From positions 45,108 to 109,107 of the forward strand of contig JANBVI010000005.1 in NCBI GenBank assembly GCA_024239075.1: a stretch of 64,000 bases of DNA. The letters are read 5' to 3'. The translations under genes were made by a program, and so were the position numbers. The stretch is from Fischerella sp. CENA71. Its GTDB lineage: Bacteria > Cyanobacteriota > Cyanobacteriia > Cyanobacteriales > Nostocaceae. The notes under the pieces are model-generated. The model was not told the origin of the DNA. It worked only from the letters and a program-made list of their open reading frames with translations, and searched no databases. Shown here piece by piece: positions 42,676 through 60,130 of this stretch (within the stretch, counting starts at the first letter, position 1; the number at the start of each line of letters is the position of its first letter).

Positions 42676-42818
42676 AATATGTATGGTATCGAGATTATTC
42701 GTCCACCACCTGGGCAGTGATCATGCGATCGCAAAGGACAATATAGTACTAGTTATTGGTAAAATATACGGTAAACTTATCGATTTAAAGTTATTTATAT
42801 ATTGATAGAGGAATAAAC

Positions 42819-44009
42819 GTGACTCCAACAGGAAAGCAGAAAATTTCAGATAAAGCAAACCAGTTCACAGAGTCAGTCATTCGCGAAATGACTAGAATGG
42901 CATTGCAATACGGTGCTGTGAATCTGGCGCAGGGATTTCCTGATTTTCCTTGTCCACCGCAGTTAAAACAGGCAGCTTGCGAAGCAATTCAGGAAGACAT
43001 TAATCAGTACGCAATTACCTGGGGCGATAAAGCCTTTCGTCATGCTATTGCAGAAAAAGTCCATTGGTATTTGGGCTTAGATATTGATCCGGAAAAACAA
43101 ATAACCGTCACCTGTGGTTCAACAGAAGCAATGGCAGCTGTCATGCTGGCAACTCTAAATCCAGGTGATGAAGTGATTGTGTTTGAGCCTTATTATGAAA
43201 ACTACGGCCCCGATGCAATTTTAGCTAGTGCCACTCCTCGTTACGTATCCTTGCATCCACCTGAGTGGACATTTGATGAAACAGAATTGCGTCGAGCATT
43301 TAATGAACGTACAAAAGCCATTATCATCAACACACCCCATAACCCAACTGGAAAAGTATTTACTCGTGAAGAACTAACTTTAATCGCTGAACTTTGTCAG
43401 CAGTGGGATGTATTGGTATTTACAGACGAAATCTACGAACACATTCTCTATGATGGAACGCAGCATATTGCAATGGCAACTCTGCCAGGGATGTCTGAGA
43501 GAACTGTTACTATTAATGGTCTTTCCAAAACCTACAGTGCGACTGGTTGGCGAGTTGGTTATATTCTGTCAAACCCAGAATTAACAGGAGCAATTCGCAA
43601 GGTTCATGACTTTCTCACCGTTGGCGCACCTGCACCCTTGCAAAGAGCAGGAGTAGCGGCGATGCAACTTCCTGTGAGTTACTACGAAGAACTAGCAAAG
43701 CTTTATCAGCAAAAGCGAGACAATATTTTGCAAATTTTGGATGCGGTGGGAATTCCCTATTTTGTACCAAAAGGAGCCTACTATGTGTTTGCAGATATCT
43801 CGCGTTTTGGTTACAAAAGTGATGTGAAATTTACGGAATATTTAATTAAAGAGATTGGTGTGGCTGTGGTTCCCGGTTCTAGCTTTTTCTCACAATCAGA
43901 GGCGGGTAGAAAGTTTATCAGATTCTGTTTTAGTAAGAAGCCAGAAACTTTGGCAAAGGCAAAAGAGCGGTTGCTGAAGTTGCAGTCTGTTCTGCAAGGT
44001 ATAAATTGA
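42819..44009 (+). CDS. PLP-dependent aminotransferase, class I/II (methionine/kynurenine aminotransferase-like)
   Basis: A 396-aa fold-type I aminotransferase starting at GTG 42819. The PLP lysine is Lys237 in NGLSKTYSATGWRVGY. The cofactor-binding Asn/Tyr segments are INTPHNPTGKVF and FTDEIYEHILYDG, and the C-terminal Arg is in FIRFCFSKKPE. The NLAQGFPDFPCPP opening is typical of the YbdL/kynurenine aminotransferase group, which acts on methionine, glutamine or aromatic amino acids. It lies beside the sulfur region but is not visibly co-transcribed with it and is not itself Met-poor. Confidence 0.85.
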   Translation: MTPTGKQKISDKANQFTESVIREMTRMALQYGAVNLAQGFPDFPCPPQLKQAACEAIQEDINQYAITWGDKAFRHAIAEKVHWYLGLDIDPEKQITVTCGSTEAMAAVMLATLNPGDEVIVFEPYYENYGPDAILASATPRYVSLHPPEWTFDETELRRAFNERTKAIIINTPHNPTGKVFTREELTLIAELCQQWDVLVFTDEIYEHILYDGTQHIAMATLPGMSERTVTINGLSKTYSATGWRVGYILSNPELTGAIRKVHDFLTVGAPAPLQRAGVAAMQLPVSYYEELAKLYQQKRDNILQILDAVGIPYFVPKGAYYVFADISRFGYKSDVKFTEYLIKEIGVAVVPGSSFFSQSEAGRKFIRFCFSKKPETLAKAKERLLKLQSVLQGIN

Positions 44010-44668: not shown

Positions 44669-45268
44669 TCAAGCAGTCACAGCAGGAGATTTATAATACA
44701 CCGGTTCATTTCCTGGCTTCCATTTGATGTTGCAACCGATACTTGGCTTTTGCTCCCAAGTAATTAAGCGATCGCTCAACACATCTTCAATGGCAGTCCG
44801 TAAATCTTTTCCAGTCACAGGTACACCGTTATTAGGACGGCTATCATCTAGCTGTCCGCGATAGACTAGCTTGCGGCTAGCATCAAATAAGAAAAAATCT
44901 GGAGTGCAAGCAGCAAAAAAGTTCTTTGCTGCTTTCTGCGTTTCGTCAAAAAGCAGAGGATAGGATAAATCCAACTCTTGTGCAAAGGCTTTGAGAGATT
45001 CGGGTGCATCATTGGGATGGGTGTTGGGATCATTAGCACTAATTGCAACTATGCCAATATTGTGATCGCGATAATCTTTACCCAATTTTGCTAATTCCGA
45101 TTTGATGTGCTGCACAAAAGGACAATGGCGGCTCAAAAATATGACTAGTAAGGCTTTTTTACTAGCAAACTTGGAGAGTGAAACGGTTTCACTCGAAACT
45201 ACATCTAGTAGCTGAAAATCTGGAGCTAAAGTACCCAAAGGCAGCATTGTTGATGGAGTCAGTGCCAT
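44669..45268 (-). CDS. Thioredoxin-fold (AhpC/TSA-like) protein
   Basis: A 199-aa protein with an AhpC/TSA-type thioredoxin fold: PDFQLLDVVSSETVSLSKF, then the redox site region LSRHCPFVQHIKSEL with a single Cys (C-P-F-V, not CxxC). Two further Cys occur (AACTPDF and IGCNIKW). The order fits the cyanobacterial thioredoxin-family proteins that act as 1-Cys-like peroxidases or reductases. It ends a leftward series that begins with the amidohydrolase, lying 63 bases after the LLM gene. A role in the redox chemistry of sulfur recovery is inference. Confidence 0.75.
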   Translation of the reverse strand: MALTPSTMLPLGTLAPDFQLLDVVSSETVSLSKFASKKALLVIFLSRHCPFVQHIKSELAKLGKDYRDHNIGIVAISANDPNTHPNDAPESLKAFAQELDLSYPLLFDETQKAAKNFFAACTPDFFLFDASRKLVYRGQLDDSRPNNGVPVTGKDLRTAIEDVLSDRLITWEQKPSIGCNIKWKPGNEPVYYKSPAVTA

Positions 45269-45331
45269 AAAATTAAACTCTGGAATTTTTCTGTGAAATT
45301 ATTTCTTTCAAACTAATCTAATATTGACAGT

Positions 45332-46708
45332 CTATGCAGAGGAAGCAGCACTCACCAATTCAGGAGAATTTGCAACTGTGGTAAATCTATTTGTCGGACG
45401 AGGTAAACCAAGATTTTCGCGCAGAGTTCGACCTTCGTACTCAGTCCGGAACAGTCCCCGCCGTTGTAGTTCAGGAATTACAAGCTCTACAAATTCATCC
45501 AAACCACCAGGTAAATAAGGTGGCATAATATTGAACCCATCTGCACCACCATTGACAAACCAATCTTCTAGTTGATCAGCAATTGTTACGGGTGTTCCTA
45601 ATATTGTGCGATGTCCGCGTGCGCCAGCGATCGCTAAATACAACTGTCGAATTGTTAAATTCTCTCTCCGTGCCAGTTCAGTTAGCAGTTGCTGACGGCT
45701 TTTACCACCGTTAGTCTCTGGTAGTTCTGGTAACGGCCCGTCTATAGGATACTCAGATAAATCAAATCCGCCAATCATCCCGGCAAGCAGACCCAAGCCG
45801 ACATGGGGATGAATTAAATCTTGTAACTGCTGGTATTTTTCCTTGGCTTCCTCCTCAGTTCTACCGATAACTGGAAATACACCTGGCATAATTTTGACAT
45901 AATCGGGGTTACGTCCGTATTTAGCTACTCTCGCCTTCACACCAGAATAGAATGCCTGCGCCTCTGCAAGTGTCTGTTGAGCAGTAAAAATGACCTCTGC
46001 TGTTTGGGTAGCAAGTTCTTGACCATCTTCAGAAGAACCAGCTTGAATAATCACCGGGTATCCCTGCGGTGGACGGGCGACGTTGAGCGGACCCCGTACC
46101 GAGAAATGCTTACCTTTGTGGTTAGGTATGTGCAATTTGTCAGGCTGAAAGAACACCCCTGACTCTTTGTCCCTTACAAAAGCATCATCTTCCCAACTAT
46201 CCCAAAGCTTGGTGACAACATCTACAAACTCTCTAGCACGTTCATAGCGCAGTCCATGTTCCATGTGCTGATCGCGGTTAAAGTTGTGTGCTTCTGTTTC
46301 CGTCGCGGAGGTCACAAGATTCCAACCAGCACGACCACCACTGAGATAATCTAGGGACGCAAACTTACGGGCGAGATGATAAGGTTCGTTATAGGTGGTT
46401 GAAACTGTCGCTGCTAATCCAATACGTTCTGTCACCACCGATAAAGCTGACAGCAAGGTGAGTGGTTCAAAGTGAACGACTACTGAACGACTCAAAGCAT
46501 CAGTTCCTTGACCCCGTTGGCGGACAGCTACACCATCAGCAAAGAAAATCATGTCAAATTTTCCTCGTTCTGCCGTCTGAGCAATTTGCTGAAAATGCTG
46601 GAAGTTCAAACCACCATCTGCTCTTGCTTGCGGGTGTCGCCATGCTGCCACATGATGGCCAGAACTCATCAAAAATGCACCCAGTTTTAGCTGTCTTTTC
46701 GTATTCAT
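45332..46708 (-). CDS. LLM-class flavin-dependent monooxygenase (NtaA/SnaA/DszA type)
   Basis: A 458-aa bacterial-luciferase-like monooxygenase. The N-terminus KLGAFLMSSGHHVAAWRHPQA, the FMN-site segment GLNFQHFQQIAQTAERGKFDMIFFADG and the VTSATETEAHNFN motif fit the NtaA/SnaA/SoxA/DszA group. That group oxidises chelators, sulfones and related compounds with FMNH2 from a separate reductase. No reductase gene is near. The protein contains no Cys and seven Met. Placed with TauD-like and SsuA-like genes, cleavage of a C-S bond in an organic sulfur source is the likely role. Confidence 0.87.
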   Translation of the reverse strand: MNTKRQLKLGAFLMSSGHHVAAWRHPQARADGGLNFQHFQQIAQTAERGKFDMIFFADGVAVRQRGQGTDALSRSVVVHFEPLTLLSALSVVTERIGLAATVSTTYNEPYHLARKFASLDYLSGGRAGWNLVTSATETEAHNFNRDQHMEHGLRYERAREFVDVVTKLWDSWEDDAFVRDKESGVFFQPDKLHIPNHKGKHFSVRGPLNVARPPQGYPVIIQAGSSEDGQELATQTAEVIFTAQQTLAEAQAFYSGVKARVAKYGRNPDYVKIMPGVFPVIGRTEEEAKEKYQQLQDLIHPHVGLGLLAGMIGGFDLSEYPIDGPLPELPETNGGKSRQQLLTELARRENLTIRQLYLAIAGARGHRTILGTPVTIADQLEDWFVNGGADGFNIMPPYLPGGLDEFVELVIPELQRRGLFRTEYEGRTLRENLGLPRPTNRFTTVANSPELVSAASSA

Positions 46709-46780
46709 TTTCTTGTGTTCCTTCCATTTAGAAGCATCGAATAAATACCTCTTTCCTTCTGTCCTCTGCTTTCTGGCTTC

Positions 46781-47692
46781 TCAAGCAGCTGACAAACTAG
46801 GGATATATCTGGAGGAATTTCCCTTGATGGCCTCGCTATGTTTTCCATCAATACCAACAGGAAGATCACCAACGAGTGTTACTCGTTGAACTCGGCGAGG
46901 TTGATTACCGTAATCAGCGATCGCATAATGTTGAGTAGCGCGGTTATCCCAGAATGCTACATCACCAACTTGCCAACGCCAACGCACTGTGTTCTCTGGA
47001 CGTGTGATATAAGATTGCAACAAACGGATAATGTCATCTGATTCTGTAGTTGATAATCCACGAATCTGACGAACAAAACCACCGATAAACAAGCCACGCT
47101 CACCAGACTCAGGATGAACACGGACAACAGGATGCAAAGTTTCGTACACAGTAGATGTAAACACAGCTTGATAAGCTTTGAGTTCTTCAGAAAGTTTGAC
47201 TGCGGCTTCTGCATAATCGTAGGCGTTGCTGTGTACAGCCCAGAGTTGATCCGCTAAAGTTTGCAAATGAGGTGGTAAATCCTGATAGGCAGTCACAGAG
47301 TTTGCCCAAATTGTATCGCCTCCTAGTGACGGGATTTCAATCGCCCGTAAGATAGAACCGAGTGGAGGACGGTCTACAAAAGTGACATCAGTGTGCCAAT
47401 TGTTCGCACGGACGGCAGTGCGACCATAATCTAAGTCCAGAATTTCTGGATATCCTTCAAACGATGGTACGGTGGGGTGAGCTGTGGTCACTTCACCAAA
47501 TCTACGAGCAAAGTTGATTTGTCCTTGAGTATCAAGTTGCTGACGACGGAAAAAGATGACTTTGTATTGAATGAGGGCTTGGCGAATCTCGCTAATTATG
47601 TCTTTGCTGAGGTCAGCACTCAAGTCAACACCCAGGATTTCAGCACCGATGCGTCCTGCAACTGGTTGAATATCAAAATATTTATAAGTCAT
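46781..47692 (-). CDS. TauD/TfdA-family Fe(II)/2-oxoglutarate dioxygenase
   Basis: A 303-aa dioxygenase. The iron ligands are His100 and Asp102 (NNWHTDVTF) and His255 (RATQHYAIADY); the 2-oxoglutarate Arg is in QPRRVQRVTL. TauD releases sulfite from taurine, and relatives hydroxylate alkyl sulfates or sulfonates. The protein contains only the initiator Met and no Cys, a remarkable composition for this length. It is preceded by the SsuA-like gene (50-base gap) and followed by the LLM gene (72 bases). The exact substrate is unknown. Confidence 0.9.
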   Translation of the reverse strand: MTYKYFDIQPVAGRIGAEILGVDLSADLSKDIISEIRQALIQYKVIFFRRQQLDTQGQINFARRFGEVTTAHPTVPSFEGYPEILDLDYGRTAVRANNWHTDVTFVDRPPLGSILRAIEIPSLGGDTIWANSVTAYQDLPPHLQTLADQLWAVHSNAYDYAEAAVKLSEELKAYQAVFTSTVYETLHPVVRVHPESGERGLFIGGFVRQIRGLSTTESDDIIRLLQSYITRPENTVRWRWQVGDVAFWDNRATQHYAIADYGNQPRRVQRVTLVGDLPVGIDGKHSEAIKGNSSRYIPSLSAA

Positions 47693-47742
47693 CTGTTTTT
47701 ACTCCAAGAGAATTTGTGTACTGCTCCCTAATCCCTTCCACA

Positions 47743-48879
47743 CTATTTTTGACTGATAGTTGGCGGTGTGATTGCAGCATACTGTTCCGTTGTCAGCATC
47801 GCTTCTTGAACATTCAGAGGTTTGGGAAGCAAGCCATTTTTATAAAAGTAATCTGCAATTCGTTGTTGTTCCTTGATTAAATCTGGGGAAATAGCCCTCA
47901 ATCCATAACCACGACGGCTGATTACCAAATCCATAACATCTGGAGGTAGTTTTTGATGGGGTGAAATTAGCTTGGCAGTTTCTTTGGGATTTACCTCTGC
48001 CCAACGCTCAATTTTATCAATCTCCTCAATGACAATCCGTAGTAATTCTGGATTATCAATGGCAAACTGTTTTGTCCCGACATAATATCCACCAGGAGAA
48101 TCAAGCCCTTGGGCTGTCCTGATAATCTTTGCTTTACCCAATTTTTCAACTCGAGCGAGATGGGGGTCGCCAGTTACCCAAACAGGAATTTTCCCTTCTA
48201 TAAAGGCACTGGTGGCTTCTACGTTGGGTATACTTAGGACTTGAATATCACTATATTTCAACCCCACATCTTCCAAAGCTCTGATGATGAAATAGTGAGA
48301 TGCAGAAGCTTTCTGGAAAACTACTTTTTGTCCCTTGATATCCTTAACACTCTGAATGGGAGAATCTGGTGGGACAGCGATCGCACTCTTTCTGCCATCA
48401 CTCCGTCTACCTACAACATAAGCAATCTGAGCGCCAGCTGCTTGAGCGAAGATAGGAGGGGTTTCTCCAACATTACCCAAATCTATTTTGCCGACATTCA
48501 TAGCTTCCATTAGCTGTGGTCCTTGAGCAAATTGCGCCCATTCCACCTTGATACCTAAGGGTTCTAGTCGTTTTTCTAGTACTTGTGTTACCTTGACCAG
48601 ATCCCCTGCTTGTTGATACCCCATGCGGAGTACTTTGGTCTTAATTCCAGATGTTTTAGTATCTGATGCATTGCTAGCAGGAGATTGAGTCTGTGCTTTT
48701 TGGCTCTCTTGCGTGCAACTAACTAATGTCAAGGAAGTTGCCAGTGTGAATAATCCTGGCACTAACAGCAGCGTAAAACGACGAAAAATATTGAAAGAAT
48801 GAAACTTGACTGTAGCAACCATAGATTTACACAGAAGGGGGATACGGGGACGCGGGGACACAGATAATACAGATGACAC
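47743..48879 (-). CDS. Aliphatic sulfonate-type ABC substrate-binding lipoprotein (SsuA-like)
   Basis: A 378-aa protein with a signal ending in lipobox LTLVSC (Cys55). A shorter start at Met20 (48822) would give a more usual signal length. The body is the SsuA/TauA type: LRMGYQQAGDLVKVTQVLEKRL, GKIDLGNVGETPPIFAQAAGA and PIQSVKDIKGQKVVFQKASASHYFI. It should bind sulfonates or sulfate esters in the periplasm. No permease or ATPase gene lies next to it, so it must use a transporter encoded elsewhere. After the signal it has five Met and only the lipobox Cys. Confidence 0.87.
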   Translation of the reverse strand: MSSVLSVSPRPRIPLLCKSMVATVKFHSFNIFRRFTLLLVPGLFTLATSLTLVSCTQESQKAQTQSPASNASDTKTSGIKTKVLRMGYQQAGDLVKVTQVLEKRLEPLGIKVEWAQFAQGPQLMEAMNVGKIDLGNVGETPPIFAQAAGAQIAYVVGRRSDGRKSAIAVPPDSPIQSVKDIKGQKVVFQKASASHYFIIRALEDVGLKYSDIQVLSIPNVEATSAFIEGKIPVWVTGDPHLARVEKLGKAKIIRTAQGLDSPGGYYVGTKQFAIDNPELLRIVIEEIDKIERWAEVNPKETAKLISPHQKLPPDVMDLVISRRGYGLRAISPDLIKEQQRIADYFYKNGLLPKPLNVQEAMLTTEQYAAITPPTISQK

Positions 48880-48927
48880 ACTCTCCCCGTCACCGCGTCT
48901 GGTGTTCTCCGCGTCTTTAAATATGTC

Positions 48928-50412
48928 TTAGCGACCAACACTCACAAGATATTCTTCAGCTTCTTTCTCAATTGCCGTACCTTTGAAGAAGTCACGATTG
49001 AGACTGGTGTACAACTCCAAGGGATGGATAGAGAGGAAGTAGCGCAAATCTTCTTCGCTGAAAATGCCTTGTTCTACCATGCTGTAAGCATTGGCAGTGA
49101 CAGATGTAATATCAGGTACATCCCAGTGACCGGAATCTGAACCTAAGAAAGCTTTGACTCTGTCACCAAAAGGATTGGCCTTTTGATAGAAGGCATAGGC
49201 AACGCGGATGTCGTCTGATTCAGTGCCGAAGTAGAAGTGATTCAAGAAGCGATCGCGTACATCTTCGGCTTTGGTAATTCCAGCCGCAGCAAATTCATTT
49301 AGTTCACCAGGATCTTCTGGTGCAAAGTATTTGCCGTGGAAACCTAACCCACTACCAAATTCTTCAAAGCGATCTTTGATTTCTGGCCCGCCATAACGAG
49401 CGAACAGTTCCCGTAATTCTTCCCGGTTGACGTTATTAGGATGATTATTCTGTAATATATCTGGGTTACGGGTTTCCCAGTGCCAGATGATATCGGTATA
49501 GAGGCTAGCACCCCAAGCCGAACCACCTTCTAAGAAAGCAAACTTGAGGGTAGGGAAACGACGGGTAACACCACCAAAGAACAGAGCTTTGCAGAATGCT
49601 TCTCCTGCGGAGGCAAAGTGTCCAATGTGGTTGTATTGATAATTAGAAATCGAGCGACGAGAAGTCCAACCCATACCAGAAGCGTGGGTGGTAGGAACGA
49701 CTTTCAATTCAACACACTTTGCCCAGAAGGGATCGTAATCATAGGCGCTATCCAATGCTAAGGTATCAATCCAGGTTGCTTCCCGTCGCACTTCTTCTGG
49801 ATATTTTTCAAAGGCGGGAATGGTACGAGTAACGTAAGCAGGAATTTGAATAGCTTTGAGTCCCAATTCTTTGACTGCATATTCTAATTCCTCAATTCCT
49901 TCCTCTGGTATGTTTAGAGGAATGGTTGCAACTGGGGTGAGGCGATCGCTATAGGAACGGAATATCTCTGCATGATAAAGGTTAGCTGCTCGGCAAACTG
50001 CTCGTCGCATTTCTTCATTCTTGATTTGCGGTGCTAGGGTTGCCAAGTTGGGATAAAGGATGGCGAAGTCTGTTCCTGCTTCTTGTAAGCGTTCATGCAG
50101 CAGCTTGGGTAAGCTGACAGTGGCAAGGTTTAAGGTGTCCTTGGTGGGACGTCCCCAGAAGGGAGGACGAGCAGTACGGTAATGATGACGTTCTTCCCAA
50201 GTTTGCTGGAACCAACGATAGCGACCAGCACCTGGTAGATGTTCGCGGAAGGCATCGGCAATCTTAGCACCACCTACTTGAGCTAAGTAGTCGAGAAAAG
50301 CAGGCTCAAATTCTTGGGTATGCACATCAGTATCAATGATGGGATAACCCAGCTGTTGGCGAATCTCGGCGGAGCGAGTTTTCTTCTTGGGACGTTCTAA
50401 TGCAATTGTCAT
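48928..50412 (-). CDS. Metal-dependent amidohydrolase (amidohydrolase_2 family)
   Basis: A 494-aa TIM-barrel amidohydrolase. The first metal motif is DTDVHTQEF (about 24-32), a His ligand is in VPTTHASGMGW, and the catalytic Asp is in LGSDSGHWDVPD near residue 425. The family includes decarboxylases and hydrolases of small acids. There is no signal peptide. It is the first gene of the leftward sulfur series. Only four Met and three Cys occur in 494 residues. Its substrate cannot be told, and a step downstream of desulfonation is possible. Confidence 0.8.
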   Translation of the reverse strand: MTIALERPKKKTRSAEIRQQLGYPIIDTDVHTQEFEPAFLDYLAQVGGAKIADAFREHLPGAGRYRWFQQTWEERHHYRTARPPFWGRPTKDTLNLATVSLPKLLHERLQEAGTDFAILYPNLATLAPQIKNEEMRRAVCRAANLYHAEIFRSYSDRLTPVATIPLNIPEEGIEELEYAVKELGLKAIQIPAYVTRTIPAFEKYPEEVRREATWIDTLALDSAYDYDPFWAKCVELKVVPTTHASGMGWTSRRSISNYQYNHIGHFASAGEAFCKALFFGGVTRRFPTLKFAFLEGGSAWGASLYTDIIWHWETRNPDILQNNHPNNVNREELRELFARYGGPEIKDRFEEFGSGLGFHGKYFAPEDPGELNEFAAAGITKAEDVRDRFLNHFYFGTESDDIRVAYAFYQKANPFGDRVKAFLGSDSGHWDVPDITSVTANAYSMVEQGIFSEEDLRYFLSIHPLELYTSLNRDFFKGTAIEKEAEEYLVSVGR

Positions 50413-50759
50413 GATGATTTCTCCGGTTATTTCACTCGTTGACTTTTACAAGCCGCAAACCCTGACAAAATCGAGCTTGACGACGGAGGAAAATCGAAAT
50501 TTGCCTTGCTAATAGCAGGAATCGGTCTTTGCAAGCATAGCAATGCCAAATTTTAGTTAACTATGGGCAAAATTATTTATTTGGTGACACTAGAGGTTGC
50601 AGCAGATTGTTTGTCACTAATTCATTCGTGCTGACAATCTTTACCTCATTAAGCTAAACTCCAGTTTCTTTGCAGATATTACTCACACTCGTAATCTACA
50701 CTCAATCCTCAAAGTGTCTGAATGATATTGTTTGTGCAGTGTTTGCACCAAAAATCATA

Positions 50760-50793
50760 AATACTGTTTATCTACCGATAAATCGGTAATTAA
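50760..50793. promoter_or_regulatory. Sulfur-region box D with a 16-bp palindrome
   Basis: TACCGATAAATCGGTA (50773-50788) is an inverted repeat (TACCGAT-AA-ATCGGTA), preceded by AATACTGTTTATC and followed by ATTAAT. It lies about 350 bases upstream of the amidohydrolase operon and shares its parts with boxes A-C. It is a candidate operator. Confidence 0.5.
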
Positions 50794-50913
50794 TATATTA
50801 TGATTGCATAACCTGAGATGTAATACAAGTCTTTTGCAAATAAAATATACGTTTATCTAATATTTATATCTATAAATAGTTAGTTAATCTAAATAAAAGT
50901 GTAATCAGACCAA

Positions 50914-50957
50914 AACAGTTATCAGTGGCCAATTTCAACTGACAACTGATAACTGTT
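50914..50957 (-). terminator. Hairpin downstream of cpcA
   Basis: AACAGTTATCAGT (50914-50926) pairs with ACTGATAACTGTT (50945-50957), a perfect 13-bp stem 26 bases beyond the cpcA stop. It is built from the genome's heptamer repeat. Confidence 0.6.
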
Positions 50958-50982
50958 CACTAATCACTGTCCACTGATTTCG

Positions 50983-51474
50983 CTAGCTCAAAGCATTGAT
51001 GACATAATCAATGTAGGAATTAGCTTCCACAGCAGGATCACCAGTTAAGCCATGATTGGCCTTGATGTATTTGAGAGCTTCGATATACCAACTAGGGGAT
51101 AGCTCAAAGGATCTGTTGATTTCCGCCAAACCAGCAACTAGATACTCATCAATAGGACCCGTCCCACCAGCAACCAATGCATAAGTAATTATCCGCAGGT
51201 AGTAGCCGATGTCACGCACGCATTTCGATTTCCCACGCTGATCATATGCATAGTTAGGACCTTGCAACTGAGTTGTGTAAGGAAACTTTTGATACACAGC
51301 GTTGGCAGCTGCTTCAGCTAGGCTTTGCGCTCTACCAGACAACGCTTTCACTGCTTCTAGCGTAACAGCTGCTTGTCGGAAACGCCCGAAAGCAACTTGA
51401 AATTCTGTGCTACTCAAAAAGCGACCTTGAGAATCTGCGGCTGCAACTGCTTCGGTTAATGGAGTTTTTGACAT
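50983..51474 (-). CDS. cpcA: C-phycocyanin alpha subunit, sulfur-depleted (Cpc3-like)
   Basis: A 163-aa phycocyanin alpha chain. The bilin Cys is Cys85 in [15 protein letters not shown] (Cys84 in mature numbering). The protein has only the initiator Met and this single Cys. Positions that carry Met or Cys in ordinary CpcA are replaced: TTQMQG by TTQLQG, LRMVTYCLV by [15 protein letters not shown] by GPIDEY. This matches the sulfur-starvation phycocyanin known from Calothrix PCC 7601. It follows cpcB after 96 bases. No linker or lyase genes follow, unlike typical cpc operons. Confidence 0.93.
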
Positions 51475-51570
51475 AAATTTCCGATCTCCCTTGTGGTTTT
51501 ACAAATTTTTATCTGTTGTTTGTCATTCGTCCTTTGTTCTTTGTCAGTAAGCGAAACTAATCACCAATGA

Positions 51571-52092
51571 CTAGCTGACAGCCGCTGCTGCCCGATCAAA
51601 GTAACTGGCAACTTCTGCCAGCAGGCTACTGCAATCACCGGGAGTAATGCCTTTAGGATCACTAGCGATCGCCAGCGAAGCTTCCTTAAGTTTTTGAATT
51701 CCAACAGCAACTGAAGCCCCCGGAGTCCCCAGTGCTACATAGGTTTCTCGCAAACCATTCAGGGCGCGGTCATCCAGTACACTAGCGTCACCTGTAAAAA
51801 TTGCATAGGTTACATAACGTAAAATGATTTCCAAATCTCGCAAGCAAGCAGCTGCACGACGATTGGTATATGCATTACCTCCAGGAGCTATCAGCTGAGG
51901 CTGTTCCTCAAACAAAGAACGCGCCGCATTAGCAACAATCACAGAAGCATTGCTGGAAATGCGATTGACAACATCTACACGCTTATTTCCGTCTTTAACA
52001 AGGGCTAACAGAGCATCTAACTGATCATTGCTCAGGTATTCTCCTCGAGTATCAGCCTGAGCAACAACCTTGGTAAAAGCATCTTGTACCAT
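51571..52092 (-). CDS. cpcB: C-phycocyanin beta subunit, sulfur-depleted (Cpc3-like)
   Basis: A 173-aa phycocyanin beta chain with bilin cysteines Cys83 ([13 protein letters not shown]) and Cys154 ([10 protein letters not shown]) and the conserved Asn in APGGNAY. Apart from the initiator there is no Met, and no Cys other than the two chromophore sites. Ordinary CpcB has RRMAACLRDME and DDRCLNGL where this has [11 protein letters not shown] and DDRALNGL. It is the first gene of a two-gene operon with cpcA. A box related to other island promoters lies about 130 bases upstream. Confidence 0.94.
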
Positions 52093-52224
52093 TGTTCAAT
52101 CTCCTGAATGTTAATTAGCGAAGAACAGTCATAGGGTTTGTAGCCAAAAGTTTCAGGGGTTTTGCAACCATACCTGTGGCTTTTTGGTCATTTACTTAAC
52201 CCAATTGAATACTGTATCTTGATA

Positions 52225-52254
52225 GGAATACCGTATTTTATGGATTTTAGTATG
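52225..52254 (-). promoter_or_regulatory. Sulfur-region box C upstream of cpcB
   Basis: Read on the minus strand: ATACTAAAATCCATAAAATA then CGGTATTCC. It shares TACTAAAA, ATAAAA and a CGGTA/TACCG half-site with boxes A and B, and lies about 130 bases before the cpcB start. Confidence 0.5.
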
Positions 52255-52466
52255 CCACAAGCAGGGTGCAAAAACAACAGGACAGTTAAAATGCAGTCTG
52301 CAAGAGTGGGGTAAATGTCCTCTATTTGCTCTAAAGTTCAAACCTACTAAAAAGCATCAGAGCCATACTGCACCCAGATGAGAACCTCCATAAGTCTGTA
52401 AAGTTAAATTTTATTTCTTGATGCCTACTTGCGTTTCTGAAGAACTCATGGCAAAGTACATATATA

Positions 52467-52500
52467 AATACTAAAAGTTTATCGATAAACCGTACTTAAT
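52467..52500 (+). promoter_or_regulatory. Sulfur-region box A with a 14-bp palindrome
   Basis: AATACTAAAAG leads into GTTTATCGATAAAC (52477-52490, perfect palindrome) and then CGTACTTAAT. It is about 115 bases upstream of the NblA-like ORF and 375 bases upstream of cpcB. Confidence 0.5.
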
Positions 52501-52614
52501 CCATATAAGAACATTGTGATTGTTTGAGGGCAAGCCACGACAATGTAACACTTGGCAGGTGTGATACAGATGTCCTGATTCCAATCGCAAATTCATATTT
52601 AAGGAGAAAACCAA

Positions 52615-52731
52615 TGGTGAGCCAGCACATAACCATAGAATTATCATTAGTGGATCAGGCTCTATGGCTGAATCATGAAATGTCTAGATATAGTACGGCA
52701 GAATTCCTGCTCAGAGATTGCGGGAATTGAC
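52615..52731 (+). CDS. Short NblA-like protein
   Basis: A 38-aa ORF with a strong SD (AAGGAG, 8 bases before the ATG). The sequence contains IELSLVDQALWL and MSRYSTAEFLL, which line up with the NblA pattern IELSLEQQF...QMSxxQAxxFL after a gap of about four residues. NblA proteins trigger phycobilisome breakdown during nutrient starvation and are usually 54-65 residues, so this one lacks the C-terminal third. It may be a truncated adaptor or a remnant. A terminator follows at 52902. It diverges from cpcB, which suits a starvation role. Confidence 0.45.
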
Positions 52732-52901
52732 TTTCTTTCCTGTTCTGTCACCTAGTCTGCTGCAACTGAAGTATGAATTACAGCAGTTTCCTACCGTTCT
52801 TTATTGACAAAGCAACACGTATTTAACTAGCGATACATGATCAGATCGGTAGCTACCTGCTGGTATACGCTACATAAACAAAGTTTAGCTTTCTCCTAAT
52901 T

Positions 52902-52927
52902 CCTCGGTTGGTTCCACCGAGGTTTTT
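52902..52927 (+). terminator. Strong intrinsic terminator
   Basis: CCTCGGT (52902-52908) pairs with ACCGAGG (52916-52922), followed by five T. It ends the short NblA-like transcript. Confidence 0.8.
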
Positions 52928-52987
52928 CTTTGGAGTATGATGAGCTAGATTTATTGAATGATGAAAAACAATACTAAGCGCTAGATT

Positions 52988-53143
52988 TCATGGTGCGAAT
53001 TGAAAAATATCCGTTCGTGCTTGATCTAATACCCAATTGGAAACTTCAGCGATCGCAAGCTCAACCTTTCCCATAGCTTCAGCAGCAGATACTTCTTCAA
53101 ACAGTACCTTACCTGAAAAGGTAATATTTATGACCATAAGCAT
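52988..53143 (-). CDS. Small protein of unknown function
   Basis: The minus strand holds a 51-codon frame from ATG 53143, or 49 codons from 53137, to TGA at 52988. It encodes an acidic, helix-prone peptide (SGKVLFEEVSAAEAMGKVEL, then a Trp and a short tail). No SD is obvious. Composition is protein-like, but the family is not recognised. It may be a relic like its upstream neighbours. Confidence 0.3.
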   Translation of the reverse strand: MLMVINITFSGKVLFEEVSAAEAMGKVELAIAEVSNWVLDQARTDIFQFAP

Positions 53144-53248
53144 AAATAAAATAATTATCCGTCACCTTGACTTCTGTATCAAAATATTATTCGGCTCTGG
53201 CACTGTAGTAAGCTATTTGCTCTTAAATAATTTCAGATTTCATTGTTT

Positions 53249-53684
53249 CTATTTACACTTTAGATACCATTTTTCTAGAAAGCGATCGCTATTTTTGAGT
53301 TCAGTAAATCCAAATAGTCGGTAGAAGTTTTGAGCATCTTTAGTTATAAGTAACCAGCGACGCAATCCTTGTAATTCTGGGTAGGATATAATCGTTTCTA
53401 TCAACCATGTGCCTAACCCCTGACCACGAAAAGGTTTTAAAACAAACACATCAGCGATATAGGCAAAGGTAGAATAGTCTGTTGTGACACGAGCAAAACC
53501 AACCTGTTGCTTGCTTTTGTACATACCAAAGACAAGTGAGTGCTGAATGGAACGCTTCAGAATTTCGAGTGGCAACCCTTCTGCCCAATAAGAACTTGCT
53601 AGAAACTGAATGTATGACGTTGATATCTAGGCGATTTCTGTCTGTACTGATGGAATACTCACCTCGTTGCCACTCTGTAATCAT
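53249..53684 (-). pseudogene. GNAT acetyltransferase with a one-base frameshift
   Basis: The first 25 codons (MITEWQRGEYSISTDRNRLDINVIH, from 53684) are in one frame. The rest, QFLASSYWAEGLPLEILKRS to the C-terminus, is in another. One extra base near 53609-53610 accounts for the shift. Joined, the protein would be about 144 aa with the acetyl-CoA loop FRGQGLGTWLIET. It is a paralog of the GNATs at 8722 and 14397. A sequencing error is possible. Confidence 0.75.
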
Positions 53685-53706
53685 AGGTTGACTGCATCTG
53701 TTAGTC

Positions 53707-54687
53707 CTAACGATGTCCCAGTATAGGATGAGGTTTGTAGGGTTCCTCTAAGAATTTGCGTTCTTCTTCAGAAAGCACTAAATCAATAGCTTCAACCGCA
53801 TCTTTAAGATGTTCTATCTTGCTAGCACCAATAATTGGAGCCGTTACGCCTGGTTGATGCAACAACCAAGCTAGAGCAATTTGTGCTGGTTTAACACCGC
53901 GTTTCTGTGCTAACTCAACGACGCGATCGACTATCTCAAAATCTGAATCATCATAGTAGAGTTCGTGGGCAAATTCATCGGTTTTGGCTCGTAGAGTTTC
54001 ACCATAGCCTTGCTTTTGTCGATTTCCTACCAATAATCCCCGCGCTAAAGGACTCCAAGGAATGATCCCAACTCCCTCAGCTATTGATAACGGTATCACC
54101 TCACGTTCTTCTTCTCGATAGACAAGGTTGTAGTGGTTTTGCATAGCTACGAAGCGAGTCCAACCGTGCTTATCGGCTGTATATAAGGCTTTGGCAAACT
54201 GCCATGCGTACATACTTGATGCACCTATGTAACGCACCTTACCAGACTTAACTAAATCGTGTAGTGCTTCCAGAGTTTCCTCAATAGGCGTCTGGTAGTC
54301 CCAACGGTGAATTTGGTACAAATCAACGTAATCTGTTTGTAAGCGTTGCAAGGAAGCATCAATGCTATCAAAGATATGTTTGCGAGATAATCACCGATCA
54401 TTCGGCCCATCACCGACCTTATTAAAAACTTTAGTAGCAATGATCACTTGATCTCTTTGGGCAAAATCCTTGAGCGATCGCCCTAATATTTCTTCACTGA
54501 CACCTAAGGAGTAAACCTCGGCTGTGTCAAAGAAATTAATCCCCAACTCTAAAGCAAGTTTGATAAAAGGGCGACTCTCTTCTTCTTCTAGTACCCATTC
54601 TCGCCACCGACGAGAACCATAGGTCATAGTACCAAGGGATAGGCGTGATACTTTCAGTCCGGTTTTACCAAGATTGACGTATTTCAT
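53707..54687 (-). pseudogene. Aldo/keto reductase with an in-frame TGA
   Basis: A full-length 326-codon aldo/keto reductase frame from ATG 54687 to 53707, interrupted by one TGA (54391-54393) in the middle of the conserved GPNDR-stop-LSRKHIF stretch, where Gly (GGA) is usual. Both sides are in the same frame. The catalytic Tyr region FFDTAEVYSLG, the Lys in VIIATKVF and the NADPH-site end IIGASKIEHL are intact. Either a recent nonsense mutation or a base error explains it. Expressed, it would give a 98-aa stub. Confidence 0.85.
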
Positions 54688-54707
54688 AGAAGGTAATTTG
54701 ATGTGAG

Positions 54708-54965
54708 TTAAGGTCCTAATTCTTTATAGAGATAAGCCAATTCCCGTTGAATTATTGGTATGTTGCTGCGCTTTGCATGACGTTTTTCTAAAATACTCAA
54801 GGCTTTGTGATACTCGCTCGTAGGAATCAATGCATCAAGATAAACTTTCTCAAATAAATCTGTTTGGGCATGGCTACCGCCTGTTTGTTGTAACCTTGGC
54901 AGTATCAATTCTAGTTCAGCGATCGCAAGGAGCAATTCACCCTGAGCATGAGCTATCATCTGCAC
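54708..54965 (-). pseudogene. C-terminal fragment of a TTC38-type TPR protein
   Basis: The 85-codon frame starts at a weak GTG shortly after an in-frame TAA and encodes LAIAELELILPRLQQTGGSHAQTDLFEKVYLDAL..., which resembles the C-terminal repeats (GGSHAQRDLFE) of TTC38-family proteins, normally about 450 aa. The rest of the protein is missing, so I treat it as a remnant. It lies between the broken aldo/keto reductase and the haloperoxidase-like gene. Confidence 0.45.
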
Positions 54966-55142
54966 AGCTACAACTACATTTTGATGTTATATTCAAAATA
55001 CTAATTGTCTATCGTAATACAGTAGTTTATAGCTATTAAATAAAACTCTCGCACAGACAGCAGTGAAAAGCAAGCGATCGCCCATATCAAATTTGCGATC
55101 ACTAGAGAAAACTAATTACACAAATTGTATTTATGTTCTCTT

Positions 55143-56978
55143 TTACACAGTAATTTGTGTACCGTCAAACTTGCTAAACGTAAAGCCGTCGAATTTTTCG
55201 TTGTACCCTAGCCTTTCGTCTCTAAGGATACTAATAGCGACTTCTTCTCCTATAGCCAAAGCCGCTGAACCATCCGAACGCCAATGGATACCGCCACTGC
55301 TACGACCAATGTAATAGTTAGTTGCTAGCTTGTTCAGCTCACCACCTACTGTCAGAGGTGGGCCACTGTAGGGAATGACTTTGGTTGGGTCATTCGGATC
55401 AGGCTCTACAGGATTAGGAATGATAAACTTTTCGTCAAAAAAGGCTTTCAAAAGTGTTGCTTGCACACCAGCAATAACCCCAGCACCGCCAGGGTAGGAG
55501 GAATGGAAGGGCGCACCTTCAGGATATGCGTGAGGTAATAGATAAGTACCAAAGTTGCTAAAGGTCTGGGCTAAAGCAGTGGAATTCAAGACTTCGGAAT
55601 TAATTGGATAGTCAGTTTTATTGACAAGATTGTTGTAGATTAATCCACCATATGCTTCTGGTCGTAGACGTCGATGTACATAAAACTTTTGCCAGTAGGA
55701 AGCTCTGATGGCTCGTGAGGGAGCCAAGTTGAGTAAAGCTTGAAAATGAGCTGGTGCAAACGTCGCAGCTGAACCTAATTGAGTCTTCGAGTTGATGTAT
55801 GGATTACCTGGATTCAAGGGTGCGTTAATTCCACCACTGAGAATTAATAAGGCTCCAAAGAACAAAGCTCCACCGATATGTGCTAATTCACTTAGATCAC
55901 GAACAGTGAATACGAAACGGCGTGTCGGGTCGTACTTAATGGCCTTGCCAGAACTACCTCCATTCTGGACAGTTAACCATTCGTCGTAATTAGTAAGAAA
56001 GTCATTGTCTTTACTAGCGAGAGCAGTACGAATCAGGGGCGAAATCACCTGGGTGTTGTAAGGAATTTCGCGCAACAGAAACTGTGATATATAAGGGCCA
56101 TCAAGTACTCCCGGTGGAATAACATATTTTGCTGTTCTACCTGAAGGATCACTCTCATCAACATAGATGACACTGCCACGAAACAGAGTTTGAGGAGTGA
56201 CAACACCATTCTGTTTTGGCCCCTGAAATGCTGAAAGATTATTTAGTTCTGCGATCGCTGCTGAGGCATTGGGATCGTCTTCAAACTTGTGAAAAGGTAC
56301 ATCTCGCAGTAGAGCCTGCCAGTAAAGTTCAACTGCCTCTGCGGCTTGTTCTGGACTATCTAGAGTTGGTGGTGGTGGAACTGCTATCTGAGATGCATTG
56401 ATTCCTTCTAGGCTAATTGCCAATGGTCCTTGAGGATTGACTAGCTTCCTTGTCCCACCCAAGATAATATTTTCATAGTCATCAGGATTAAGTGTTGTCA
56501 GTGCTTTAATCAAAGAATCATAAGCTTTGAGATCTACTTCCCCTCGTTGATTATGTGGTAATCCCCTAGTGTCAGTAGCGATTTTGTTTGGGTAGCGTTC
56601 CTCGTCGCCATTAGTTGGATGCGGTGGAATGTCAATTTGCTGATTTGCTTGTGCTGCTTGCACACGTACTCGAAAAGCTTTCTCGCGAAACTGAATGTAG
56701 TTGAACCGTCTAACAGGTTTTTTCCCTTGGGTTATTTCCTGTGCTTGGACAATTTCTCCTCTATTCTTCGAGGAGAAAGACGAACCCATAACTCCTGTGA
56801 CAACGCTGGCAGCTGTAAAGATACCAGCACGACCCAGAAATGAGCGTCTACCAACGCTACCAGCGAATAAACCTCTGCGTCGTCTCCTACCAGTACTAGG
56901 AGATTTAGGATTTGTGGTTTCGCTTGGCACTTGTGTATTTTCTTGAGGAACTTGATCGGAATTGGGATCGGGTTGCAT
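55143..56978 (-). CDS. Vanadium-haloperoxidase-like exported protein, sulfur-free and lacking a catalytic His
   Basis: A 611-aa protein. A twin-arginine signal (GRRSFLGRAGIF, Arg44-Arg45, then a hydrophobic stretch) precedes a vanadium-dependent haloperoxidase (PAP2-fold) domain. Vanadate ligands are recognisable: Lys431 and Arg439 (KFYVHRRLRP), and Arg559 and His565 (GRSSGGIHWRSDG). The acid-base motif P-S/A-G-H reads P-G-G-A (496-499), so the expected His is Ala499. The only Met residues are the initiator and Met64 in the signal, and there is no Cys. The exported form would therefore contain no sulfur. Box B lies about 240 bases upstream. Confidence 0.85.
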   Translation of the reverse strand: MQPDPNSDQVPQENTQVPSETTNPKSPSTGRRRRRGLFAGSVGRRSFLGRAGIFTAASVVTGVMGSSFSSKNRGEIVQAQEITQGKKPVRRFNYIQFREKAFRVRVQAAQANQQIDIPPHPTNGDEERYPNKIATDTRGLPHNQRGEVDLKAYDSLIKALTTLNPDDYENIILGGTRKLVNPQGPLAISLEGINASQIAVPPPPTLDSPEQAAEAVELYWQALLRDVPFHKFEDDPNASAAIAELNNLSAFQGPKQNGVVTPQTLFRGSVIYVDESDPSGRTAKYVIPPGVLDGPYISQFLLREIPYNTQVISPLIRTALASKDNDFLTNYDEWLTVQNGGSSGKAIKYDPTRRFVFTVRDLSELAHIGGALFFGALLILSGGINAPLNPGNPYINSKTQLGSAATFAPAHFQALLNLAPSRAIRASYWQKFYVHRRLRPEAYGGLIYNNLVNKTDYPINSEVLNSTALAQTFSNFGTYLLPHAYPEGAPFHSSYPGGAGVIAGVQATLLKAFFDEKFIIPNPVEPDPNDPTKVIPYSGPPLTVGGELNKLATNYYIGRSSGGIHWRSDGSAALAIGEEVAISILRDERLGYNEKFDGFTFSKFDGTQITV

Positions 56979-57499
56979 AAGATTATTTCTGTTGTTAGGA
57001 AGTAAAGTATGAGAATGTATTACAGGTAACTTATCTACCTGTAGAGATTGAGTACCGCTATATGAGGAGTCATCCTCTAGGAGAGTTCTGATTTAGAAAA
57101 CTAACTCAATACCTGCGTTCAAGTATTGCTAATAAAAACAGCTAAAAAACAGATGCATAAGCTAAGGCTTAGGACGATTTATAATCACCAGGATATTCGT
57201 GCTTAATAAGCAAGTACTAAAAGTCGATAAAATTACCGTATTTTGCTGTCAAAATAGAATTTCTCACAAAAATGTATGAAAAGCAAGAGGGTGTTACTAT
57301 TTGTTCTTTGTATTTTCACCAATTTGGATAACTGGATACGATTTGCGATCGCTAGTCTTGATGTAGTTGTGAGAATAAACTAAGTATGCTAACTTTATGA
57401 ATATCTAAATTTAAGTCTTTCTAATACCATCTCATAGTCAGCGAAATCAGCGAACTTTTGCTCTGCTAGTTTGCTAAAGCTCACTGAAGGACGATACTG
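56979..57499. other. Promoter region of the haloperoxidase-like gene
   Basis: About 520 bases between divergent genes. It contains box B (57214-57245). Nothing else was recognised. Confidence 0.4.
57214..57245 (+). promoter_or_regulatory. Sulfur-region box B upstream of the haloperoxidase-like gene
   Basis: GTACTAAAAGTCGATAAAAT then TACCGTATTTTG. TACTAAAAG and CGATAAA match box A. TACCGTATTTT also occurs at 52229-52239, inside box C. It is about 240 bases before the haloperoxidase-like start. Confidence 0.5.
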
Positions 57500-59054: not shown

Positions 59055-59277
59055 TAGTAGAAATATGATAATCTGCTGTTGATGAAGGTAAGTTGTATTA
59101 GGGTATGGCTGGGCGATTTGAAGGATTAAGCGACCTGGAATGGAAGTTGTTTGAAGATTCAAAGAAAGAGGGTTTATTTCTCTGATGAAGAACATCTAAA
59201 ACCTTAATTTTTATGCAAATTTAACTTTGATTATATTCTATCAGTTGTTTGTGTAATTAATTCTGCTTAGTTACTTA
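59055..59277 (+). mobile_element. Internally deleted IS remnant with 120-bp repeat copy 2
   Basis: An ATG at 59105 opens MAGRFEGLSDLEWKLFED, an N-terminus typical of cyanobacterial IS4/IS5-type transposases. It runs directly into SKKEGLFL-stop, the element's 3' end. The part 59158-59277 is nearly identical to 10064-10183. The whole middle of the transposase is gone. The exact outer ends were not determined. Confidence 0.65.
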
Positions 59278-59291
59278 TAATCTCCGTCGGC

Positions 59292-59459
59292 GAGTATTTG
59301 AAATAGATGAACGAGTGTTTGATACTCGTCGATGAGTGTTTGATACTCGTCGATGAGTGTTTGATACTCGTCAGCGAGTGTTTGATACTCGTCAGCGAGT
59401 GTTTGATACTCGTCGATGAGTCTTTGAACTCCGTCGTCGAGTGTTTGATACTCGTCGTC
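59292..59459. repeat. 21-bp tandem repeat, eight units
   Basis: Units begin GAGTGTTTGATACTCGTC plus three variable bases (GAT, AGC or similar). Starts are at 59292 (degenerate), 59313, 59334, 59355, 59376, 59397, 59418 and 59439, with no spacing variation. Each unit holds a small inverted repeat GAGT...ACTC. The repeat is open in several frames on both strands because 21 is a multiple of 3, so coding is not implied. Confidence 0.9.
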
Positions 59460-59460
59460 C

Positions 59461-59514
59461 TAATTGTCCAATTTTTTACCAAATATCTAACGTGATTTAA
59501 TATCCGCGATCGCT
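59461..59514. repeat. Duplicated chlD 3'-end sequence (copy 1)
   Basis: About 54 bases match 60246-60300, with the last 28 identical (ending in TAATATCCGCGATCGCT). Copy 2 spans the chlD stop. Copy 1 spans the stop of the RelE-like toxin gene. The two copies flank the toxin-antitoxin pair. Confidence 0.85.
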
Positions 59515-59892
59515 TGCTTTAGAACTCTTATTGTCTTCTATCGCACGTTGTTCATACTCAGCAATGATGCTCTTAATATCATCAGCTGCGATATCGGCTT
59601 GTTCTGATTTAGTGTAAATAGTCAGCAGAATAATACCTGTTGCTGTTTTGACGTAATAAATGAGACGATAACCACCACTTTTACCTTTTTGAATATCGCT
59701 ATTTCGGACTCGCAGCTTAAAAACTTCATAACCAATCCCAGATATCTGATCTCCAGGTAATTCTCCCCGTTCAAGTTGTGCGATTACGGGTTGTATGTCA
59801 TTACGAATACTCCGATATTTTTTAGCGAGGGTGCGTAGATTTCGGTTAAACGTTGGTGCGGCTTCAACTTGAATAAATGGTTGCTCAGACAT
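59497..59892 (-). CDS. RelE/ParE-type toxin
   Basis: A 131-aa protein counted from ATG 59892; an earlier start at 59898 adds two residues. It has the RelE/ParE fold: FNRNLRTLAKKYRSIRNDIQPVIAQLERGELPGDQI, then KSGGYRLIYYVKTATGIILLTIYTKSEQADIAADDI. Such toxins cut mRNA at the ribosome or block gyrase. The gene overlaps the upstream antitoxin gene by 8 bases. The last residues (KASDRGY) and stop are encoded by a duplicated copy of the chlD tail, read in another frame, so the native C-terminus was probably replaced. Confidence 0.85.
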   Translation of the reverse strand: MSEQPFIQVEAAPTFNRNLRTLAKKYRSIRNDIQPVIAQLERGELPGDQISGIGYEVFKLRVRNSDIQKGKSGGYRLIYYVKTATGIILLTIYTKSEQADIAADDIKSIIAEYEQRAIEDNKSSKASDRGY

Positions 59893-60130
59893 CCTCAAAC
59901 CCTTCCCAAAGTTGAGCCACAGGAATTGTTTGTCCGGTCATGGCTTCATGCCAAGCTTGGCGAAAATCTTCTAGAATATCTTCTTTAGACTTATCATCTT
60001 CATCAATTTCTGCTGCTTCTGGAAAGAGTACAATGACTTCAACGCGACTGTTCTTATCCGTAATTAAGGGCTGATCTAAAGTAAGTTGCCCATGCTCATC
60101 AATGGTTGCCATAACTTTAATGGCTTTCAT
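59885..60130 (-). CDS. Antitoxin of the RelE-type module
   Basis: An 81-aa acidic protein with a short N-terminal beta region (MKAIKVMATIDEHGQLTLDQPL) like the AbrB/RHH-type N-termini of cyanobacterial antitoxins. It has an acidic middle (EIDEDDKSKEDILEDF) and a toxin-binding-type tail (FRQAWHEAMTGQTIPVAQLWEGFEDV). Antitoxin first, overlapping toxin second, is the classic type II order. Auto-repression of the promoter in 60131-60240 is expected from the family but not shown. Confidence 0.78.
   Translation of the reverse strand: MKAIKVMATIDEHGQLTLDQPLITDKNSRVEVIVLFPEAAEIDEDDKSKEDILEDFRQAWHEAMTGQTIPVAQLWEGFEDV

Follow-up and report, generated by a model that had tools for sequence, protein, structure and literature searches.

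The sulfate-starvation-induced (SSI) proteins of E. coli and Pseudomonas, with their tau and ssu genes, are a known system, and CymR is known as the Rrf2 repressor of cysteine metabolism in Bacillus and Staphylococcus. Elemental sparing is known mainly from single proteins, and the sulfur-sparing phycocyanin (Cpc3) of Calothrix/Fremyella PCC 7601 was reportedly described by Mazel and Marliere in 1989. Cpc3 of this strain is reportedly also treated by Gutu et al. (2011), cited in PMC12016511. We report here on a stretch of 64,000 nucleotides from Fischerella sp. CENA71 (hereafter the window; positions 45,108-109,107 of contig C5, in a genome of 7.47 Mb in 95 contigs) that carries, at about 42.8-57.2 kb, a sulfur-related gene island. 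Like the SSI proteins, the island comprises TauD, SsuA and an LLM monooxygenase and shows the low sulfur content of such enzymes, but it adds a photosynthetic antenna and an exported haloperoxidase homologue (HPO); this comparison concerns the enzymes. As in PCC 7601, one cpcBA pair lacks Met beyond the start and has its few Cys at what we take to be the chromophore positions, with an ordinary set also in the genome. In the window, however, cpcA is not followed by a linker gene, the promoter is followed by an operator, and the genes sit in an organosulfur island beside a haloperoxidase homologue. A parallel can also be drawn with the CymR regulon, in which sulfur-acquisition genes stand in one regulon under an Rrf2-type regulator, as is proposed here; our candidate regulator, however, scores under the CymR cut-off and an antenna and sulfur-free proteins are among the members.

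A symmetric 32-bp palindrome, AAATACGGTAAATCGATCGATTTACCGTATTT, stands ahead of the island's putative transcription units, among them a remnant gene, and also ahead of many units for sulfur acquisition in other parts of the genome. On the strength of this shared operator we consider it likely that the island is one part of a genome-wide sulfur-starvation regulon. An earlier note, made from the letters of the window alone, had described a sulfur-starvation island and offered one regulon as inference; both are supported, the regulon by the operator evidence. The island is larger than the span given there, 44669..56978, which leaves out an operator-bearing aminotransferase on the left (42819-44009). 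Read along the minus strand, the genes are HPO, an 85-aa open reading frame (ORF), an aldo-keto reductase (AKR), a GNAT acetyltransferase, a gap, cpcB, cpcA, amidohydrolase, SsuA, TauD, LLM and redoxin, with the plus-strand aminotransferase at the left end. Scores in the following list are those of the final position weight matrix (PWM) described below.

42764..42795, unstranded: operator site 6, 24 bp ahead of the aminotransferase start, PWM 20.7, missed when searching with the stricter pattern; in F. muscicola PCC 7414 this gene likewise carries a site.
42819..44009, plus strand: class-I aminotransferase, named from its sequence, 3.0% Met+Cys.
44669..45268, minus strand: AhpC/TSA-type redoxin (family search), final gene of the amidohydrolase run, not sulfur-poor.
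45332..46708, minus strand: LLM flavin monooxygenase of the NtaA/DmoA family (PF00296, TIGR03860), 458 aa.
46781..47692, minus strand: TauD-family dioxygenase (PF02668), 303 aa.
47743..48879, minus strand: SsuA-family sulfonate-binding lipoprotein (TIGR01728), lipobox judged by eye, not sulfur-poor.
48928..50412, minus strand: amidohydrolase (PF04909), 494 aa.
50759..50790, unstranded: operator site 5, 347 bp upstream of the amidohydrolase-ssuA-tauD-LLM-redoxin run, PWM 19.4, three mismatches in the pattern search.
50983..51474, minus strand: sulfur-sparing CpcA (TIGR01338/TIGR01339 family pair), 163 aa.
51571..52092, minus strand: sulfur-sparing CpcB (same family pair), 173 aa.
52207..52238, unstranded: operator site 4, 115 bp ahead of cpcB, shortly after a -10 element (TTGTTT-N17-CATACT), found by PWM and pattern search.
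52466..52497, unstranded: operator site 3, facing the remnant SfnB-like gene, PWM 28.3, also in the pattern search.
52617..52730, plus strand: remnant SfnB-like ORF, 37 aa, N- and C-terminal pieces fused.
53249..53575, minus strand: GNAT acetyltransferase, 108 aa here and 148 aa in F. muscicola.
53707..54687, minus strand: AKR broken by a single in-frame TGA, as against an intact copy of 326 aa in F. muscicola.
54708..54965, minus strand: small ORF, 85 aa, without a family match in Pfam/NCBIfam scans.
54996..55027, unstranded: operator site 2, 31 bp ahead of the 85-aa ORF/AKR/GNAT unit, PWM 24.9, also in the pattern search.
55143..56978, minus strand: exported haloperoxidase homologue, 611 aa, twin-arginine motif judged by eye, Ala499 in place of the acid-base His.
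57212..57243, unstranded: operator site 1, 234 bp upstream of the HPO gene, PWM 29.9, also in the pattern search.

The top 7-mer in 147 non-redundant upstream regions (at most 300 bp, a few from the window) of HPO, TauD, SsuA, LLM, amidohydrolase and cpcB3 genes was ATACGGT/ACCGTAT, found in 16 of them against 5 of 760 controls. With a first PWM built from six cpcB3 sites, one from the window, and a threshold set at 1% of controls, sites were detected ahead of 8/33 HPO (p 2e-8; one of the eight is the window's own region), 6/43 TauD (p 2e-5), 4/28 LLM, 2/7 amidohydrolase and 2/15 SsuA genes. When all scores were ranked, the tests gave weaker results (HPO p 0.02, TauD p 0.19) because most upstream regions carry no site. 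For the final 32-bp matrix we used 16 sites that all lie in other genomes, outside the window, but that had been located with the first PWM. It finds six places in the window, one ahead of each of six island units, at scores of 19.4-29.9; the next best scores 1.9, and when the window was shuffled locally 20 times the score never exceeded 16.2. Above 20, there is one place in a 400-kb sample of the own genome and two in 40 control loci (about 790 kb), both of them in L282, a 'random' locus that was found to carry SsuA, LLM and sulfatase. A degenerate pattern, drawn with the window sites in view, gave nine strand-matches at five of the six places in the window, against 0.02 expected and none in 100 shuffles. 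A -10 element with a -35 at 17 bp, TTGTNT-N17-(C/G)ATACT, stands about ten bases before the site in eight of nine cpcB3 loci picked for having the site (window, PCC 7414, L223-L228 and L229), the ninth, L229, giving no match to this expression; a position just after the -10 ahead of cpcB would suit a repressor site.

Over the whole genome, the degenerate pattern with two mismatches has 49 strand-matches at 29 places, against four for the reversed pattern. Four of these places lie in the window, its two weaker sites being reached only with more mismatches allowed, and 25 of the 29 were read, C50, C53, C74 and C78, each with one two-mismatch match, being left out. The neighbours, several of them named from sequence, are ssuB, nitroreductase, SsuA, porin, AKR and a FAD/ferredoxin pair on C32, with a CysA-type ATPase at 122 kb of the same contig; an SsuD-like LLM enzyme, an SsuC-like permease, MgtC and an Rrf2 gene (C21); formylglycine enzyme with sulfatase (C13, C20); SsuA with a FAD enzyme (C26); nitroreductase and methyltransferase (C8); GST, SDR and a TauE-like protein (C71); another TauE-like protein (C4); mtnB/mtnD (C64); a sulfate-binding protein (C75); and cysteine synthase behind a weak site of 14.1 (C88). 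The 35 proteins behind sites scoring at least 17 have a median Met+Cys of 1.31%, against 2.69% for 259 others (p 1e-6); with the window-read proteins removed 28 are left and p is 2e-5, two phycocyanins, read from L315, still being included.

The operator is also found in relatives. Sites scoring at least 20, 205 in all, occur in 99 of 180 fetched loci (40 of the 180 being controls) and make 250 gene-site pairs: GST 30, zinc-type dehydrogenase 19, HPO 18, SsuA 17, CpcB3 16, porin 12, TauD 7 and sulfatase 4, counts that are biased since most loci were fetched for TauD, HPO or cpc. In 146 Nostocaceae genomes the pattern yields 1552 hits when the larger strand count of each genome is summed, and the reversed pattern 191; at least seven hits occur in 84 of the genomes.

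Some further observations deserve mention. A quinone-oxidoreductase-like dehydrogenase family (L070:7785-8732) has a mean Met+Cys of 0.03% and an operator ahead in 19 loci. In L310, nitroreductase-like and methyltransferase-like proteins (names from sequence), without Met or Cys after the start, stand behind one operator. In L318 (7415-9532) and relatives, a fumarate-reductase/AprA-like flavoprotein and a ferredoxin-type protein adjoin SsuA-like proteins, also behind an operator. Genome G349 has the highest operator count of the 146 (36 per strand), and five other genomes of its genus have 3-8.

A candidate regulator is the Rrf2 protein encoded on C21 (L320; PF02082, E 1e-31). By sequence, its best match among solved structures is 4cic (3e-17), with CymR (2y75) at 4e-15, and it lies below the NCBIfam CymR equivalog cut-off (100.7 of 195 bits). 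Over the 146 genomes the number of operators correlates with that of Rrf2 copies (rho 0.77; 0.80 over 56 genera; 0.69 with genome size held), and in one relative (L225) a site stands ahead of an rrf2 gene near cpc3.

The Met and Cys counts and protein lengths of the earlier note were reproduced. Its view that the island proteins are sulfur-poor holds unevenly: strongly for phycocyanin, TauD and HPO, mildly for LLM and amidohydrolase, and not for SsuA and redoxin, which are ordinary against 243 proteins of at least 150 aa (simple ORF calls) from 20 stretches making up the 400-kb sample. Pooled, eight island proteins have 1.01% Met+Cys against 2.64% in the sample; random sets of eight as low occurred once in 100,000, which is not a clean p-value, the eight having been flagged for looking low. 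One of the 243 sample proteins is as low as or lower than TauD (303 aa, no Met after the start, no Cys; 0%), and likewise one for HPO (611 aa, one Met after the start, no Cys; 0.16%). The corresponding numbers are 12 for CpcA (163 aa, no further Met, one Cys; 0.61%), 27 for CpcB (173 aa, no further Met, two Cys; 1.16%), 31 for amidohydrolase (494 aa, three further Met, three Cys; 1.21%) and 39 for LLM (458 aa, six further Met, no Cys; 1.31%).

Comparison with family homologues had been set beforehand as a test of this sulfur economy. It was computed over the aligned parts of homologues that were collected around TauD, HPO and cpc3, so many of them themselves sit in sulfur loci. Met+Cys stays at 0-0.35% in every one of the 93 TauD homologues read, even where identity falls to 20-35%, which makes the poverty of TauD a family trait, the very outcome that had been named as counting against the idea. 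Paralogues elsewhere are even poorer than the island copies for LLM (60-75% identity; 0.53%) and amidohydrolase (45-60% identity; 0.61%). For HPO and phycocyanin the test came out in favour of the idea: phycocyanin Met+Cys is bimodal across homologues, and for both proteins relatives outside a sulfur context are ordinary.

In the phycocyanin pair itself, CpcB has no further Met and two Cys and CpcA no further Met and one Cys, against 3M/3C and 1M/1C in the second, ordinary cpcBA of the genome. We compared the cpc3 loci of 41 other genomes, having left out beforehand L046/L222 (F. muscicola, a near copy), L126 (a 4.5-kb contig) and L138/L139 (CpcB poor in part, with a CpcA that lacks Met beyond the start). 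A panel of sulfur genes is met within about 10 kb in 19/41 cpc3 loci, against 0/20 ordinary cpc loci from 20 of these genomes, which contain no sulfur-poor cpcB, and 1/20 random loci; some of the panel genes had been chosen from the test loci themselves, which makes 19/41 optimistic, and kinship among the genomes means that they do not count as independent. With the window's own genes alone as panel the counts are 8/41, 0/20 and 1/20 (p 0.04; pooled 0.03). No linker gene follows cpcA in the window, and at least one does in 23/41 loci (18 without and 5 with panel sulfur genes). In the fetched loci of relatives, a site of at least 20 lies within 500 bp ahead of the sulfur-poor cpcB in 10/44 (L046 and L222 being one contig) and of the ordinary cpcB in 0/37.

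The partners of cpc3 vary by lineage: cysteine synthase, rhodanese and a Crp-type regulator, with a sulfate-binding protein in four of six (L127-L129, L131-L133); sbpA-cysT-cysW-cysA and mtnB/mtnD (L130); a YeeE-type transporter and rhodanese (L223, L226, L227); a sulfate-binding protein and LLM (L225); SsuD-like, MetX/MetY and sulfatase (L228, L229); TauD, SsuA, porin and sulfatase (L122). Further types are the window's own and an HPO type. The latter, seen in L232 and L235-L238 (one genus), comprises porin, SsuA, HPO, cpcB3, cpcA3, two linkers, nitroreductase, an SsuB-like ABC ATPase, SsuA and a TauD-family protein; its porin has 0-1 Met after the start and no Cys, its linkers have no further Met or Cys, and four of the five loci have an extra gene between HPO and cpcB3. 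In L128, L129, L132 and L133, a sulfate-binding protein without Met after the start or Cys lies beside cpcB3A3 and the Crp-type regulator (possibly CysR), as does an exported-looking protein of 224-232 aa with 0-1 Met and no Cys.

One could assume that the operator serves another stress (redox, oxidant or xenobiotic) and that sulfur genes form only part of the response. Rrf2 regulators can be redox or Fe-S sensors, GST and zinc-type dehydrogenases are the commonest neighbours in the loci of relatives, and GST, quinone-type dehydrogenases, nitroreductase and haloperoxidase would fit. However, ssuA/B/C/D, tauD, sulfatase with formylglycine enzyme, mtnD, cysK, cysA and sbpA are neighbours too, CymR is among the closest solved Rrf2 relatives, and the Met/Cys depletion of the products fits sulfur shortage and not oxidant stress alone. 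We thus regard this explanation as unlikely.

The haloperoxidase homologue had struck the earlier note as an unexpected member, and its membership holds up: it has its own operator, cpcB3A3 or TauD/Ssu neighbours in other genera and a place in a sulfur-depleted clade. The idea of a chance neighbour was discarded in view of its linkage to cpc3 and sulfonate genes in other genera and of the operators. Among the 146 genomes, close HPO (>55% identity) occurs in 44, TauD in 58 and both in 38 (odds ratio 26, uncorrected for kinship); 11 of the 38 carry the two on a single contig, no more than 25 kb apart. The median number of operator hits is 21 in genomes with close HPO, 5 in those without and 3.5 in those with distant homologues only.

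HPO has no Pfam/NCBIfam match at E 0.001, but it matches the vanadium bromoperoxidase 1qhb with E 5e-66 and is homologous over about 430-480 residues to the vanadium bromoperoxidases of PDB 1qhb and 1qi9. K431, R439, H492, R559 and H565 (window numbering) align with their conserved site, so that H492 and what are presumably the anion-binding Lys, the two Arg and the axial His (K431, R439, R559, H565) are kept. In contrast to these enzymes, HPO has Ala499 for the acid-base His, Gly497 for the Ser two before it, and almost no Met or Cys. The homologues read fall into two non-overlapping groups, with 0-0.83% (n=47) and 1.48-2.80% (n=21) Met+Cys. A FastTree tree with its root on the distant homologues joins the sulfur-poor group in a single clade (local support 0.97; sequences below 380 aa and one duplicate dropped). 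At the position of the SGH-type acid-base His, all 47 of its members have Ala or Ser and all 21 relatives have His. The nearest relatives outside the clade (46-48% identity, of the same family; five of seven such places read) have ordinary Met+Cys and the histidine. Since the anion-binding residues are kept and the acid-base His is lost, HPO is unlikely to be an ordinary bromoperoxidase; we would guess that it works on organic sulfur compounds outside the cytoplasm. Haloperoxidases make hypohalites, and one would also wonder whether HPO is sulfur-poor because its own oxidant would attack Met and Cys. This is improbable: the relatives that keep the catalytic His are those with ordinary Met+Cys (21/21), the His-less clade is the sulfur-free one, and the operator also stands at porin and dehydrogenase families that are just as poor in sulfur.

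Several observations weigh against a regulon of this kind. The first PWM finds no site in 25/33 HPO and 37/43 TauD upstream regions (300 bp), and the sites on C28 and C63 adjoin two-component-type genes without a sulfur link. The regulon aminotransferase, formylglycine enzyme, MgtC and one FAD enzyme have ordinary or high Met+Cys, and so do, within the island, redoxin (2.01%; 72/243 sample proteins as low or lower) and SsuA (2.12%; 79/243). Of the 41 cpc3 loci, 22 have no panel sulfur gene nearby (18 of them with linker genes), and 34/44 sulfur-poor cpcB loci have no operator nearby, so in these loci cpc3 must be under some other control. As to the regulator, the possibility that the C21 rrf2 gene is itself preceded by the operator was dismissed, no site lying ahead of its start, and some Rrf2 match exists in 144/146 genomes, also those with few sites; the link between Rrf2 and operator, a correlation plus the L225 case, is suggestive only, and the organosulfur repertoire could drive both numbers. 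Finally, gene order, whose comparison had been proposed, shows that HPO, cpc3 and sulfonate genes are linked repeatedly in other genera, but among the loci compared the full order is seen only in F. muscicola PCC 7414 (L046/L222, one contig), which also has the closest TauD relative. That the genes are neighbours without joint function, their low sulfur a family habit and their order chance, would agree with this restriction and with the uniformly sulfur-free TauD homologues, but it is hardly credible given six operator sites at unit starts and the linkage just mentioned.

Under the regulon that we favour, a CymR-like Rrf2 repressor would sit on the operators while cysteine supply is good and leave when it falls. 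SsuA could then take up sulfonates, and TauD, the LLM enzyme and other scavenging enzymes could release their sulfur, as their families suggest. Some proteins would be made in versions with little or no Met and Cys: phycocyanin and the exported HPO, in the wider regulon GST and dehydrogenases, and in relatives porin. More tentatively, and with somewhat less than even confidence, we propose that in heterocystous cyanobacteria one CymR-like switch with a 32-bp operator puts into service an emergency set of proteins nearly free of sulfur (antenna, porin, dehydrogenases, GST and exported enzyme), including a haloperoxidase fold that, without its acid-base His, would newly free sulfur from organic matter outside the cytoplasm. 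A literature search (titles and abstract openings) found no description of the operator, the regulon or a sulfur-linked, sulfur-free haloperoxidase clade in cyanobacteria. Within the literature searched, the operator, the breadth of the regulon and the altered clade appear new, the sulfur-sparing phycocyanin and the SSI enzymes being already known. The operator lets a sulfur-sparing programme be listed from sequence and tested across many species, a candidate master regulator is provided, and attention is drawn to a clade of uncharacterised, sulfur-free enzymes whose bromoperoxidase fold has an altered active site.

Some points concern the other genes. By score, TauD is a family member with its substrate unassigned (PF02668 E 3e-65; NF007104 275.6 bits against an equivalog cut-off of 313), and SsuA is above the TIGR01728 cut-off (186.8 against 163.5 bits). 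Pfam and NCBIfam agree with the families named in the earlier note for TauD, LLM, SsuA, amidohydrolase and phycocyanin, and the 1qhb match with haloperoxidase, but not with an NblA-like protein. That identity of the 37-aa ORF was rejected: it has no Pfam match at E<=1, the NblA domain included, and it aligns with residues 1-32 and then directly 320-350 of the 361-aa SfnB-like protein of relatives. Antenna remodelling is therefore left with phycocyanin replacement as its sole basis. In F. muscicola (L046), three genes (a 141-aa protein, a methyltransferase and a HAD hydrolase) lie between GNAT and cpcB, and no such ORFs were found in the window at 52600-53250. Outside the island, a short in-frame repeat (SIKHSSTSIKHS) at 59267-59482 adjoins two small ORFs (59497-60130) that are toxin-antitoxin-like in appearance.

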